From Ornithinimicrobium pratense (GTDB lineage: Bacteria; Actinomycetota; Actinomycetes; Actinomycetales; Dermatophilaceae): 64,000 nucleotides of DNA. A program made the translations under genes and the position numbers. The DNA lies in NCBI RefSeq assembly GCF_008843165.1, contig NZ_CP044427.1:2046001-2110000 (forward strand), written 5' to 3'. A model generated the notes under the pieces. That model made no database searches, had not been told where the DNA came from, and saw nothing but the letters and a program-made list of their open reading frames with translations. Positions 1,463-29,698 of this stretch are shown piece by piece (within the stretch, counting starts at the first letter, position 1; the number at the start of each line of letters is the position of its first letter).

Positions 1463-2502
1463 GCGAGATGATCGCGCTGGAGTTCATGCGCAACGCGCTG
1501 GTCGCGGCCCTGTTCGTCGGTCTGGCCGCGCCGATGGTCGGGATCTTCCTGGTGCAGCGACGGCTCTCGCTCATCGGCGACGGGCTTGGCCACGTGGCGT
1601 TGGCCGGAGTGGCGATCGGTGTCGTCACGCAGACCAGCCCCGTGTGGTCAGCGCTGGTCGCCGCCGCCATCGCCGGTGTCCTGATCGAGCTGATCCGGGC
1701 CCGGGGGCGAACCTCGGGCGACGTGGCGCTGGCGCTGATGTTCTACGGGGGCATCGCGGCGGGCGTGGTCATCATCAACCGCGCGGACGGCGGGCAGACC
1801 GGCAACCTCACCGGCTTCCTCTTCGGCGCGATCACCACCACCTCGCGCGAGGACCTCGGGGTCTTCGCCGTCCTCTCGACCGCGATCATCGCGGCGACCG
1901 TTGTCCTGCGCGACCGGCTCTTCGCCGTGGCCGGTGACGAGGAGTACGCCCGCGCCTCGGGTCTGCCGGTGCTCGCGCTCAACATCGTCCTGGCCGTACT
2001 CACCGCGGTGACCGTGGTGGTCGCGATGCGGGTGATCGGGCTGCTGCTCATCAGCGCGCTGATGATCATTCCCAACGCCGCCGCCCAGCAGTTCTCCGGC
2101 AGCTTCCGGGCCGCGGGGTGGTGGGCGGTGCTCATCGGTGTGGTCTCCTCCGTCGGCGGCGTGGTGACCTCGTTCTACGCCGACACCGCCTCCGGCGGGA
2201 CGATCGTGCTGCTGGCCATCGCCCTCTTCGCCGTCGCCGCGCTGGGGGGTGCTGTCCGCCGCGCCATCGCACTGGCCCGGCACCGGCACGCCGAACGGCA
2301 CCCGCACGAGCACGGCCCCGGCTGCGGGCACGATGTGGTCCCGCACGGCGACCACGTCGACTACCTGCACGACGGTCACCGGCACGCGGCGCACGAGGGC
2401 CACTACGACGAGCACGCATCCCAGGTGCACCCGCACGAGCACGACCCGCTGGGCGTGCCGCATACCCTCGAAAAGCCGAAGAACCAGGAGGCCGCACCGT
2501 GA
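1459..2502 (+). CDS. znuB: Zinc ABC transporter permease with a histidine-rich C-terminal tail
   Basis: This is a 347-residue ABC-3 family permease that forms the membrane channel for ZnuAC. Its multiple hydrophobic segments run to about residue 270. After that comes a soluble tail of some 65 residues with about 18 histidines interspersed with Asp and Glu. Ordinary ZnuB proteins are about 260-290 residues long and end near the last helix, so this tail is an addition. It is predicted to be cytoplasmic and could bind zinc as it enters, as a sensor or buffer; that role is inference. GTG 1459 overlaps the znuC stop. The open frame extends upstream, but that part only shadows znuC. Confidence 0.92.
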   Translation: MSEMIALEFMRNALVAALFVGLAAPMVGIFLVQRRLSLIGDGLGHVALAGVAIGVVTQTSPVWSALVAAAIAGVLIELIRARGRTSGDVALALMFYGGIAAGVVIINRADGGQTGNLTGFLFGAITTTSREDLGVFAVLSTAIIAATVVLRDRLFAVAGDEEYARASGLPVLALNIVLAVLTAVTVVVAMRVIGLLLISALMIIPNAAAQQFSGSFRAAGWWAVLIGVVSSVGGVVTSFYADTASGGTIVLLAIALFAVAALGGAVRRAIALARHRHAERHPHEHGPGCGHDVVPHGDHVDYLHDGHRHAAHEGHYDEHASQVHPHEHDPLGVPHTLEKPKNQEAAP

Positions 2503-2903
2503 CCACCACCCGTCGCCCCACCCGGCAGCAGAGCGCCGTCGTGGCGCAGCTGGCCGAGCTGGACGACTTCACCAGCGCCCAGGAGCTGCACGCCAGCCTG
2601 CGCGACGCGGGGGCCAAGGTGGGTCTGGCGACCGTCTACCGGACGTTGGCCTCGATGGCTGCCGCCGGTGAGATCGACACCCTGCGCACCGACGAGGGCG
2701 AGGCCGTCTACCGCAAGTGCTCCACCGGGCACCACCACCACCTGGTCTGCCGCGGGTGCGGCCGCACGGTGGAGATCCAGGGCCCCACCGTGGAGCGCTG
2801 GGCGGACACCGTGGCCGCCGAGCACGGCTTCACCCAGGTGGAGCACACGCTCGAGGTCTTCGGGGTCTGCCCAACCTGCGCCCACACCGCCCCCACCCAC
2901 TGA
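2499..2903 (+). CDS. zur: Fur-family zinc uptake regulator
   Basis: This 134-residue Fur-family repressor has an N-terminal winged helix, with the recognition segment around KVGLATVYRTLASM. The C-terminal dimerisation domain carries a HHHH run and two Cys pairs (CRGCG and CPTCA) that would hold structural zinc. As the last gene of the znu operon, with a GTG start overlapping znuB by 4 bases, it is best read as Zur, which represses zinc uptake when zinc is plentiful. FurA- or PerR-like roles are less likely in this context. The stop is followed within 3 bases by an array of 22-bp repeats. Confidence 0.92.
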   Translation: MTTTRRPTRQQSAVVAQLAELDDFTSAQELHASLRDAGAKVGLATVYRTLASMAAAGEIDTLRTDEGEAVYRKCSTGHHHHLVCRGCGRTVEIQGPTVERWADTVAAEHGFTQVEHTLEVFGVCPTCAHTAPTH

Positions 2904-2905
2904 CC

Positions 2906-3027
2906 GAACACGCCGAAGGCCTCAAGAGAACACGCCAAAGGGCTCGAGCGAACACGCCACAAGGGCTCAGGGAACACGCCCCGGTGTCCTGTCGGGCCTT
3001 CTGCCGTGTCCTGTGGGGAGGGGTGCG
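2906..3027 (+). repeat. Array of 22-bp repeats between convergent zur and uppS (locus 1)
   Basis: Three full direct units begin GAACACGCC at 2906, 2928 and 2950, exactly 22 bp apart. A truncated fourth starts at 2972. Two inverted units follow at 2984 and 3006, beginning GTGTCCTGT, again 22 bp apart. The inverted units match the reverse complement of the direct ones in part. A second array of the same family lies at 27709-27796. The array fills almost the whole gap between the two convergent genes. The period does not preserve a reading frame, so it is not coding. Confidence 0.85.
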
Positions 3028-3033
3028 GGCGGG

Positions 3034-3819
3034 TCAGGCGCTGGGAGCGTCCACCGCTCCGCCGTAGCGACGGTCCCGGGAGACGTACTGCTCGATCCCG
3101 GCCCACAGGTGCCGCCGGTCGTAGTCCGGCCAGAGCACGTCCTGGAAGACCATCTCGGCGTAGGCGCTCTGCCACAGCAGGAAGTTGGAAGTCCGCTGCT
3201 CCCCCGAGCTGCGCAGGAAGAGGTCCACGTCGGGCACCTCCGGGTGGTAGAGGTAGCGGCCGATGGTGCGCTCGTCGATCCCGCGCGGCGACAGCCGCCC
3301 GGCCTTGACGTCCTCACCGATGGCCCGGACCGCGTCGGCGAGCTCGGCCCGCCCGCCGTAGTTGACGCAGAAGTTGAGGGTGATGACGTCGTTGTCGCGG
3401 GTGCGCTCCTCGGCGTCGCGCAGCTCGGAGATCACCGACCGCCACAGCCGTGGCGTCCGCCCGGACCACACGACGCGCACGCCCCAGGAGTGCAGCTCAT
3501 CGCGTCGCCGGTGGATGACGTCGCGGTTGAAGCCCATCAGAAAGCGCACCTCGTCGGGGCTGCGGCGCCAGTTCTCGGTGGAGAAGGCGTAGGCGCTGAT
3601 GCACCGCACGCCGACCTCGATCCCGCCCGCGATCACGTCCAGCAGCGAGGCCTCCCCGGCTTCGTGGCCCTGGGTGCGCTTCAGACCACGCTGGTTGGCC
3701 CAGCGGCCGTTGCCGTCCATGACGATGGCCACGTGCCGGGGCACGAGCTCGGCCGGGATCGCCGGGGGCCTGGCCCCGGAAGGGTGGGGGAAGGGCGGCA
3801 CGGGCTGGCGGGTCGCCAT
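3034..3819 (-). CDS. uppS: Isoprenyl transferase (cis-prenyl diphosphate synthase)
   Basis: This 261-residue Z-type prenyltransferase adds isopentenyl units to make the polyprenyl diphosphate used as lipid carrier in peptidoglycan synthesis. The hallmark [10 protein letters not shown] (catalytic Asp and diphosphate binding), AYAFSTENW and the C-terminal [14 protein letters not shown] are all present. Start ATG 3819 was chosen over an upstream extension because it has an AAGGACC ribosome site within the end of recO and gives the usual length; only 4 bases separate it from the recO stop. Pairing with recO matches the mycobacterial decaprenyl diphosphate synthase locus. Product chain length cannot be read from the sequence. 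Confidence 0.92.
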
Positions 3820-26946: not shown

Positions 26947-27807
26947 TCAGCGCAGCCGGTAGGCCAAGTCGGTGATCTGCCGACCGGCCTCGGTGCCCCG
27001 GCGCTCGAAGCGGGTCACCGGGCGCAAGGGGGCCCGGTCGGTCGAGGCGAGCTCCAGCCGCGGCTCCGCCCCGACCACCTCACGCATGGACTCGGCGTAG
27101 TGGTCCCAGTCGGTAGCCAGACGCCATACCCCGTCGGGTGCGAGCAGCCGGACCACGGCGTCGACGAAGTCCGGGGTGACGATCCGCCGCTTGTGGTGCT
27201 TGGCCTTGGGCCAAGGATCGGGGAAGAACGTCCACACCTCGTGCACCGAGCCCGGCGCGAACATGGTCTGCAGGGCGACCACCGCGTCGACCTCCACGAT
27301 GCGCACATTGGGCTGCGCCCCAGCGCCGGTCTGGGCTTCCATCTTGGCCAGGGCGTGCCCGATGCCGGGCTTCCAGACCTCCAAGGCGATGAAGTCCCAC
27401 CCTGGTCGCTGGGCAGCGCCGGCGACCAGGGCGTCCCCCGACCCGGAGCCGACCTCGACGACGAGGGGCGCCAGGCGGCCAAAGACGTCCCGTGGGTCGA
27501 GGCAGTAGGCGGGGTCCACCACGGTCGAGGTCGCGCCCATCGGCCGGGGCACCTCGAGCACCACCTGGTCGGCGAGCCGGTCCCAGGCAGCCTGGTGCGT
27601 GCGCGGCATGCGTCCCCCGCGGCGGGTGAATGAGCGGGTCCGCGCCAAGGGCCGCGGGCCGATGAACGGGTGGCCGAGGGCGTAGTGGCCGGCCGGCGGC
27701 TGCGTCCGCGTGTTCGGTGGCGGCTTCTCCCGTGTCCTGTCGGGCGTTGTCGCGTGTTCTGTCGGGCTCTTTGACGTGTTCTGTCGGGGGTGGGGTCCGT
27801 CGCTCAC
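26947..27807 (-). CDS. trmB: tRNA (guanine-N7-)-methyltransferase
   Basis: TrmB methylates G46 of tRNA variable loops. The SAM-binding VVEVGSGSGDALV and the signature FFPDPWPKAKHHKRRIV are clear, ending with TRFERRGTEAG. The start is uncertain. The conserved part begins at about LARTRSFTRRGGRMPR, but the first ATG inside it (27609) would cut that segment. GTG 27807, used here, gives 286 residues, and the first 50 of these would be encoded by the 22-bp repeat array. TTG 27648 is another candidate. The lepA stop is 16 bases upstream of GTG 27807. Confidence 0.85.
   Translation of the reverse strand: MSDGPHPRQNTSKSPTEHATTPDRTREKPPPNTRTQPPAGHYALGHPFIGPRPLARTRSFTRRGGRMPRTHQAAWDRLADQVVLEVPRPMGATSTVVDPAYCLDPRDVFGRLAPLVVEVGSGSGDALVAGAAQRPGWDFIALEVWKPGIGHALAKMEAQTGAGAQPNVRIVEVDAVVALQTMFAPGSVHEVWTFFPDPWPKAKHHKRRIVTPDFVDAVVRLLAPDGVWRLATDWDHYAESMREVVGAEPRLELASTDRAPLRPVTRFERRGTEAGRQITDLAYRLR
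27709..27796 (-). repeat. Array of 22-bp repeats between lepA and trmB (locus 2)
   Basis: Four consecutive 22-bp units start at 27709, 27731, 27753 and 27775 and begin CGTGTTC or CGTGTCC. Read on the minus strand they give GAACACG-type units, the same family as at 2906-3027. The 14-base string GTGTCCTGTCGGGC is identical at 27732-27745 and 2984-2997. The array spans the region just before the conserved part of trmB. Confidence 0.85.
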
Positions 27808-27823
27808 CCCTCGCACCCACCGC

Positions 27824-29698
27824 TCACTTCTTGGTCTTCTCGGCGACAGCGCCATCCTGGGAGAGCGCGGCGATGAAGGCCTCCTGCGGCACCTCGACGG
27901 AGCCCACCATCTTCATCCGCTTCTTGCCCTCCTTCTGCTTCTCCAGCAGCTTGCGCTTGCGGCTGATGTCACCGCCGTAGCACTTGGCCAGGACGTCCTT
28001 GCGGATGGCGCGGATGGTCTCCCGGGCGATCACCCGGGAGCCGATCGCCGCCTGCACCGGGACCTCGAACTGCTGGCGCGGGATCAGCTCCTTGAGTTTG
28101 GTGGCCATCTGCACGCCGTAGGCGTAGGCCTTGTCCCTGTGCACGATCGCGCTGAAGGCGTCCACGGTGTCGCCCTGGAGCAGGATGTCCACCTTGACCA
28201 GGTCGGCCTCCTGGGACCCGTCCGGCTCGTAGTCCAGCGAGGCGTAGCCGCGGGTGCGGGACTTCAGCGCGTCGAAGAAGTCGAAGACGATCTCGGCCAG
28301 CGGCAAGGTGTAGCGCATCTCCACCCGCTCCGGGGACAGGTAGTCCATCCCCCGCAGCGTGCCCCGTCGGTTCTGGCACAGCTCCATGATCGCCCCGATG
28401 AACTCGCTGGGCGCCAGGATCGTGGCCCGCACGATGGGCTCGGTGATCGACGCGACCCGCCCGGAGGGGAACTCACTGGGGTTGGTGACCTCGAAGGTGG
28501 ACCCGTCGTCCAGCACCACGTCGTATTCCACGTTGGGCAGGGTCGAGATCAGGTCGAGGTCGAACTCTCGCTCCAGCCGCTCCCGGACGATCTCCAGGTG
28601 CAGCATGCCGAGGAAGCCAACCCGGAAGCCGAAGCCGAGGGCCGCCGAGGTCTCGGGCTCGTAGACCAGCGCCGCGTCGTTGAGCTTGAGCCTGTCCAGG
28701 GCATCGCGCAGGATCGGGTAGTCCGAGCCGTCGATGGGGTAAAGCCCGGAGAAGACCATCGGGCGGGGCTCCTTGTAACCACCCAACGCCTGGGCCGCCT
28801 GGTTGCGCTCCCCCGTGACGGTGTCCCCGACCTTCGACTGCCGCACGTCCTTGACCCCGGTGATCAGGTAACCCACCTCGCCCACGCCCAGTCCCTTGGA
28901 CGGGACCGGCTCGGGGCTGATGACGCCGATCTCGAGCAGCTCGTGGGTGGCCCTGGTCGACATCATGGTGATCCGCTCACGCGGTGAGAGCTCGCCGTCG
29001 ACGACCCGGACGTAGGTGACCACGCCGCGGTAGGTGTCGTAGACCGAGTCGAAGATCATCGCCCGCGCGGGTGCGTCGGGGTCGCCGACCGGCTGCGGGA
29101 CCAGCTCCACGATGGTGTCGAGCAGCGCCGGGACACCCACACCGGTCTTGCCCGAGACCTGGAGCACCTCGGCCGGGTCGCAGCCGATGAGCCCGGCCAG
29201 CTCCTCGGCATACTTCTCCGGCTGGGCGGCGGGCAGGTCAATCTTGTTCAGCACCGGGATGATGGTCAGGTCGTTCTCCATGGCCAGGTAGAGGTTGGCC
29301 AGAGTCTGAGCCTCGATCCCTTGGGCCGCGTCGACGAGCAGCACGGCCCCCTCGCCGGCAGCGAGGCTCCGGCTGACCTCGTAGGTGAAGTCGACGTGAC
29401 CGGGGGTGTCAATCATGTTGAGGATGTAGGTCGAATCGCCCGCCTCCCCCTGCACGGCCCAGGGCATCCGGACGGCCTGGCTCTTGATCGTGATCCCCCG
29501 CTCACGCTCGATGTCCATCCGGTCCAGATACTGCGCCCGCGCATGCCGCTGGTCGACGACACCGGTCTCCTGCAACATCCGGTCGGCCAGCGTCGACTTG
29601 CCATGGTCGATGTGGGCGATGATGCAAAAGTTGCGGATGCGCTCCGGCGGGGTGGATGCCGGCGGGGGCACCGTATGCGGGCGGGCAAGGGGAGACAC
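27824..29698 (-). CDS. lepA: Translation elongation factor 4 (back-translocase LepA)
   Basis: The 624-residue GTPase rescues or back-translocates stalled ribosomes and affects initiation. The G domain has [24 protein letters not shown] and VLNKIDLP. The EF4-specific C-terminal domain is complete, with [15 protein letters not shown] near the end. The N-terminal 20 residues are variable. It lies upstream of trmB. Confidence 0.95.

Follow-up and report, generated by a model that had tools for sequence, protein, structure and literature searches.

What is the short repeat array that separates the convergent genes zur and uppS of Ornithinimicrobium pratense, and what could it do there? The array was studied in a window of 64,000 nucleotides, the whole stretch of DNA analysed, and it is confirmed as real. 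It occupies window positions 2901-3026 and consists of four direct and two inverted cores, GAACACGCC starting at 2906, 2928, 2950 and 2972 and GTGTCCTGT at 2984 and 3006. An earlier account of this DNA, the sequence-only reading, had placed all units at exactly 22-bp spacing. This is correct inside each arm, where the pitch is exactly 22 bp, but not between the arms, where the step is 12 bp. The left arm scored 95 with a period of 22 in Tandem Repeats Finder, and a search for an inverted repeat inside the unit at this locus found none. The left edge of the array is the zur stop codon (TGA, 2901-2903), the GA of which is also the GA of the first core, GACCGAACACG, at 2902-2912. The window holds a second array of the same family. 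The features are:

2499..2903, + strand: zur, Fur-family regulator gene (Pfam FUR, E 1.2e-30); its TGA stop at 2901-2903 shares bases with the first core
2902..2978, + strand: left arm, in zur sense; four cores (2902-2912, 2924-2934, 2946-2956, 2968-2978) with three 11-bp fillers between them
2983..3026, - strand: right arm, in uppS sense; two cores (2983-2993, 3005-3015)
3034..3819, - strand: uppS, undecaprenyl diphosphate synthase gene, convergent with zur (Pfam Prenyltransf, E 5.3e-75)
27709..27785, - strand: second array, in lepA sense; four cores at 27709, 27731, 27753 and 27775, the first core 38 nt past the lepA stop
27824..29671, - strand: lepA, upstream (in sense) of the second array (Pfam LepA_C, E 1.3e-49)

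Tandem Repeats Finder places the second array at 27731-27788. The same program reported a tandem repeat of 9-bp units like CACGACGAG at 12-152, which may be a His/Asp-rich part of a gene for a zinc-binding protein located upstream of zur.

That the array is an isolated peculiarity, or due to chance, was ruled out by a search of the 3.54-Mb genome to which the window belongs (G000; other G numbers denote compared genomes). The exact pair CGTGTYC-N15-CGTGTYC occurs there 39 times, 23 on one strand and 16 on the other, and the reversed pattern does not occur. A few of these pairs look unlike the unit, for example the one at 1638386. The same pair was found 122 times in G002, of the same genus, with one reversed match. 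At least 14 core pairs are present in 14 of the 31 genomes of the genus, the window's own genome with its 39 included, and the other 17 have at most 8. A search with the general core gave 139 pairs in G421, 134 in G420, 117 in G010, 79 each in G012 and G018, 68 in G424, 53 in G004, 48 in G020, 37 in G013, 27 in G002, 21 in G008, 18 in G017 and 14 in G019; the remaining genus genomes had at most 8 (G423 8, G419 6, G006 4), and the reversed control gave 0-2 per genome. Searches with a pattern of their own raise G002 to 122 and G017 to 104 pairs. Species without matches may carry arrays with a different core.

The other 155 genomes of the taxonomic family had at most 5 pairs with the general core and at most 1 in a search with an earlier pattern. 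Many of the general-core matches are one recurring sequence, which we take to resemble an rpoB coding match. In 396 genomes of the order, a draw that contained two genus members, the maximum besides the own genome was 6 pairs with the G000-type core alone. A GTDB-wide scan for one motif, in which records near the window may be left out, returned 25 stretches, 22 from O. tianjinense and three from Streptomyces; the latter, one similar sequence in three species, were taken for a chance coding match. As far as tested, the repeat family is confined to Ornithinimicrobium. Phage, viral and plasmid collections were searched for the array and gave no match, by which an origin from any of them was ruled out. 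Literature searches, few of which named Ornithinimicrobium, found no paper describing such arrays.

Several reversed controls were not empty. In the exact-pair search there were 30 reversed matches in G018 and 8 in G012, exceeding the forward pattern, and we read them as the array type of those genomes themselves, which was found later. In the family-pattern search G000 had 10 reversed matches and G002 had 26; the cause is that TGTCCTGT is the same when read backwards. A search allowing three mismatches gave 133 reversed versus 211 forward matches and was thus too loose for counting. The strict single core matched 13 times in 454 kb, with 3 matches in arrays, 8 single in gaps and 2 in coding calls. 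G213, from another genus of the same taxonomic family, gave 19 matches to the reversed control, and another repeat family may exist there.

The array belongs to a family of polar tandem arrays dispersed through Ornithinimicrobium genomes, built from a core at fixed pitch and a clade-specific filler. The common core is 10-11 bp long and reads ACMGRRCRCG on the sense strand. In G000 and G002 the unit, in the sense of the upstream gene, is the core GACMGRACACG followed by the 11-bp filler CSAAARGGCCC; other clades join the same core to different filler, as in ACCGGACAGGCGTTCCTGCCGG (G017), ACCGGACGCGCGGTCGGGCCGC (G012 and G420) and, with a longer filler, ACCGAGCGCG (the 32-bp species). In four sets of units the core carried 1.55, 1.83, 1.78 and 1.87 bits per position versus 0.83, 1.19, 0.85 and 0.81 in the remainder, figures that are favoured by the selection of the repeat phase to fit the core. 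The core was absent from 6 of the 167 arrays found through self-similarity alone. In a tree of uppS, 11 of whose 27 inner branches are well supported, the type of G012, G018, G420, G423 and G424 makes up a single clade with good support. The pairing of G000 with G002 has modest support, and the 32-bp type is divided between two clades. The sense consensus of G000 and G002 has no U and more C than G, and that of G017 has G equal to C. Moreover, the G000/G002 consensus unit contains no stop codon in any frame, so the array can sit in coding DNA. A GTAG/CGTC tag is not common to the consensus units of the four sets, CGTC being found only in the reverse complement of the G012/G420 unit. At L216 and L217 a common motif, CGCTGACGTTGACGTCAA, lies between opposite arms and is perhaps a regulator site.

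The periods of 208 core-bearing tandem arrays were 22 (133 arrays), 44 (19), 32 (11), 33 (7), 21 (6), 40-43 (7) and 29 (2). The pitch is 32-33 bp in G008, G010, G020 and G421, 33 bp in G013 and mostly 22 bp in the other array-bearing species; 22 and 32-33 bp correspond to about two or three helical turns. A Rayleigh test singled out no helical pitch, and the pitch arose in few independent origins. G017 has many irregular links (17, 27, 29, 32-34, 40-43). One locus of this O. tianjinense genome (L209, 2554-2790) has about eight copies with a period of 29, an exception to the 22/32 rule. At L308, in G013, the cores that make up the period of 33 are separated alternately by 12 and 21 bp, an arrangement that points to a second half-site in arrays of long period.

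The pitch is kept while the letters drift. Neighbouring units in G000 and G002 differ by 600 substitutions over 125 pairs, or 4.8 of 22 letters. Phase was changed in 9 of 134 links, or 13 of 156 under the loosest unit threshold, which amounts to about 50-67 substitutions per indel; the reference rates in the same two genomes are 6.9 for ordinary intergenic DNA and 61.4 for coding DNA. When cores alone were counted with one mismatch, 28 of 186 distances were off phase, some of them surely involving chance cores, and the figure was about 26 substitutions per indel. Relative to substitutions, indels that change the phase between adjacent units are about 4 to 10 times less frequent than indels in ordinary intergenic DNA; the factor varies with the way of counting links, the most lenient count (cores only, one mismatch) lowering the constraint to about fourfold. 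In G012 and G420, 1 of 144 links was off phase. Orthologous arrays compared between G000 and G002 gave 5.6 substitutions per indel (361 and 64), like ordinary intergenic DNA, and we take most of these indels, which were left unsorted, to be whole-unit gains or losses. A conserved core, a helical pitch and constrained spacing, the marks of a phased array, are all present in the family, with links of 27, 29 and 40-43 in G017 as exceptions. The sequence-only reading had proposed that the genome and relatives be searched for the unit and its 22-bp phase, and had named two lone arrays, no counterparts in relatives and freely varying spacing as grounds for giving it up. Instead, arrays are numerous both in this genome and in its relatives, the core is conserved, and the spacing is retained and looks constrained.

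The arrays lie mainly at gene 3' ends, are mostly read away from the stop codon, and often start in it. In six species 140 arms were collected from loci that had been picked because they hold arrays, with a detection that favours intact cores; 14 of them fell within a called gene and 2 at the edge of a locus, and the remaining 124 were classified. Genes were called by a codon-usage script, and nine of the proteins were checked with Pfam. The arms were distributed over convergent (51), tandem (66) and divergent (7) gaps. In the sample loci of G000 and G002 the corresponding gap lengths are 12.2, 26.2 and 18.0 kb, and against this background convergent gaps are enriched for arms and divergent gaps depleted. 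The nearest gene has the sense of the array for 43 of the 51 convergent arms, and 46 of the 66 tandem arms are sense; exceptions are the tandem arms of G008 (2 sense, 3 antisense) and the convergent arms of G420 (3:3). Arms sharing a locus are not independent, and the p-values for position and polarity are therefore too small.

Of the 124 arms, 97 follow a gene of the same sense. Forty-nine of these start in the stop codon or at most 5 nt past it, 26 of them in the final 20 nt of the called gene and 23 at 0-5 nt past the stop; 31 start at 6-30 nt past the stop, 13 further away and 4 deeper inside the gene. As at zur, the first core and the TGA stop share their GA in 21 of 72 sense arms (6/19 in G000, 8/30 in G002, 7/23 in G017). 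In G012 and G420 a TAG within the first unit is the stop codon in 8 arms, and six of the proteins consequently end in APDAR and the others in a near form. At ten two-arm loci between convergent genes, every arm has the sense of its own adjoining gene. The arms are thus inverted because two gene ends face each other, each arm following its own gene.

The arrays turn over quickly. uppS is present in all 31 genus genomes, and 30 of its loci were retrieved. The 330 bp past uppS could be read in 18 of them; a 22-bp array was present in two (G000 and G017) and absent from 16, some of which have a neighbour other than zur next to uppS. Tandem Repeats Finder detected no further 22-bp array in the post-uppS gap of the 30 loci; elsewhere in them it found one 22-bp array in G004 and 32-bp arrays in G010 and G421. 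The G017 array has a different unit and likewise begins at the zur TGA. The zur-uppS array is missing from G002, where a gap of about 22 bp separates the two genes. The aligned blocks of G000 and G002 are about 84-94% identical, and arrays were gained, lost or changed in copy number between them. At L096, L112 and ispD, several units in one species correspond to one or two core remnants in the other. At G000:C1:824160-824330 (L259) there is another 22-bp repeat, GACCGGGGACACGCTATGCCCC, in about four copies, and G002 has a standard array in that place. In two genomes with few or no core pairs (G007, L148; G280, L152) a long near-perfect hairpin lies directly past the uppS stop; its stem starts with CCACGGGATAGCACAACC, also at the TGA, and it is possibly another gene-end element.

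Three intragenic arrays were verified, all in frame, in tilS (antisense), in ispD (sense) and in the gene of an MFS transporter. IspD of G000 carries an insert of 31 residues; at that position the G002 protein shows a single core-like stretch. The earlier description of the array as something other than coding DNA is accordingly right for most arrays, which are at gene ends, but too narrow for those that lie in frame inside genes or provide stop codons. The fast turnover, the tilS and ispD arrays and the near absence of core pairs from 17 genomes speak for a weak or redundant function, or none.

Could the two arms act through RNA? A classical bidirectional hairpin terminator built from both arms would agree with their inversion, and of the 13 stretches that were folded, 3 clearly do better than their shuffled versions (z -4.97, -2.85 and -2.71). 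However, the other ten lie between -1.85 and +1.33, many loci are single-armed, and a scan of window 2400-3600 detected no terminator-like site, that is, no G+C-rich hairpin followed by a T run, in keeping with the earlier view that this is not a classical terminator. The same view had allowed the large inverted repeat to fold as RNA; that idea fails, since the two-arm RNA of the window is no better than shuffles (z -0.63 and -1.65), and a long RNA hairpin was rejected. A hairpin terminator is thus very improbable. A known RNA family was also rejected, two matches under the cut-off lying at 2799-2873, outside the array. An RNA-level element at the 3' end is improbable to a lesser degree. Here the transcribed array would be a Rho loading site or an RNA-protein site, freed when the ribosome leaves at the stop codon and hidden by translation inside genes. 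The polarity, the position directly past stops, the arrays in translated genes and the U-free, C-rich sense consensus of G000 and G002 are compatible with it. It is opposed by the fixed G of the core, a strict motif rather than loose YC runs, by the equal G and C of G017, by a fixed pitch of 22 or 32-33 bp that RNA binding does not demand, and by the search of the 13 stretches for a common RNA fold, which found none. Somewhat less probable again is a topology site. Phased arrays would then retain DNA gyrase or a bending protein at the ends of genes, the places in which positive supercoils accumulate when transcription converges. The BIME elements of E. coli are gyrase-holding topology sites of this sort. 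The near-helical pitch, the enrichment in convergent gaps and the depletion in divergent gaps suit this explanation, but polarity relative to the gene is not expected for a gyrase site.

With its conserved core and variable filler, its guarded pitch and its polarity, the family probably fits sites for a DNA-binding protein better than an RNA fold or a simple satellite. Our preferred reading, held tentatively and short of an even chance, is that the arrays are platforms, phased and polar, to which a protein is predicted to bind at the 3' ends of genes, and that their turnover resembles that of REP repeats. A putative sequence-specific DNA-binding protein would recognise the core, and a spacing of roughly two or three helical turns would set the copies on one face of the DNA and allow joint binding. 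The polar complex might cap transcription at gene ends, stopping both read-through and head-on transcription, or might instead anchor DNA topology there; the arrays would spread and vary in copy number in the manner of REP-like repeats. A search for a trans-acting protein, which covered the Y1 family, gave no candidate. A strong roadblock is difficult to reconcile with the arrays that lie in frame within tilS and ispD. The main rival is a selfish or neutral interspersed satellite, copied by some route, changed in length by slippage and read by no host protein, surviving where it does least harm: right past stop codons, between convergent genes and in protein loops. We regard it as a serious possibility, if not a probable one. 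Its case consists of the differences between G000 and G002 in the presence and copy number of arrays, the patchiness across the genus, the in-frame insertions in tilS, ispD and the MFS gene with a stop-free consensus unit, the 5.6 substitutions per indel between orthologous arrays, and the same gap preference of REPs in the part of PMC3733652 that deals with it. Against it stand the retention of the core across clades while the filler was replaced, a pitch that, per substitution, is preserved about 4-10 times more strictly than expected, the exact stop-codon start in 21 of 72 sense arms, and a search for the Y1 transposase (PF01797), which found it in 0 of 31 genus genomes and in 5 of 14 control genomes. 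It is because of the intragenic arrays, the fast turnover and the near absence from 17 genomes that the protein platform is put forward with such reserve and the satellite is given the weight it has.

Known systems resemble the arrays in part. Plasmid iterons and 22-bp transposon-end sites are direct repeats about two helical turns apart with a conserved core; unlike such phased protein sites, the arrays are dispersed over the chromosome at gene ends and had no plasmid, phage or viral match. REPs, in the relevant part of PMC3733652, are short and numerous in each genome; they lie for the most part in convergent and tandem gaps, on the downstream side of coding regions, and are sometimes intragenic. 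Like REP and BIME elements, the arrays are short interspersed repeats in many copies, and 117 of 124 arms have the extragenic convergent or tandem placement downstream of genes. They differ in that the unit is not a 20-40-bp palindrome, has no GTAG/CGTC tag across types, and is set in arrays of strict pitch, polar relative to the stop codon; a REP with its RAYT was rejected, the Y1 transposase being absent. MIRU elements, in the section of PMC12548453 on them, are likewise actinobacterial repeats precisely joined to gene edges, inserting at start codons with a coupled ORF, whereas the arrays join stop codons, have 22 or 32-33-bp units, need no ORF and have 7 of 124 arms in divergent gaps. Rickettsia palindromic elements, as far as the parts of PMC10969869 and PMC3733652 on them go, are palindromes of about 150 bp in frame inside protein genes. 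The arrays in ispD, tilS and the MFS gene share the in-frame position; they are not such palindromes, and the arrays lie mainly at gene ends.

It is possible, though doubtful, that the family represents a class of bacterial gene-end element: polar, helically phased arrays of putative protein sites that run outward from the stop codon and close transcription units in much of the genus, the site being conserved and the pitch switching between two and three turns as clades diverged. If the spacing constraint reflects protein binding, genes would be closed or insulated by phased protein arrays rather than by hairpins, which would be a new mode of transcription-unit closure for a lineage of high G+C content. 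If they are selfish, the arrays would be a repeat with a precise junction to stop codons that genes such as tilS and ispD tolerate in frame, and that manages without a REP transposase. Either way, two close genomes in which the same sites are filled or nearly empty make the question directly testable.
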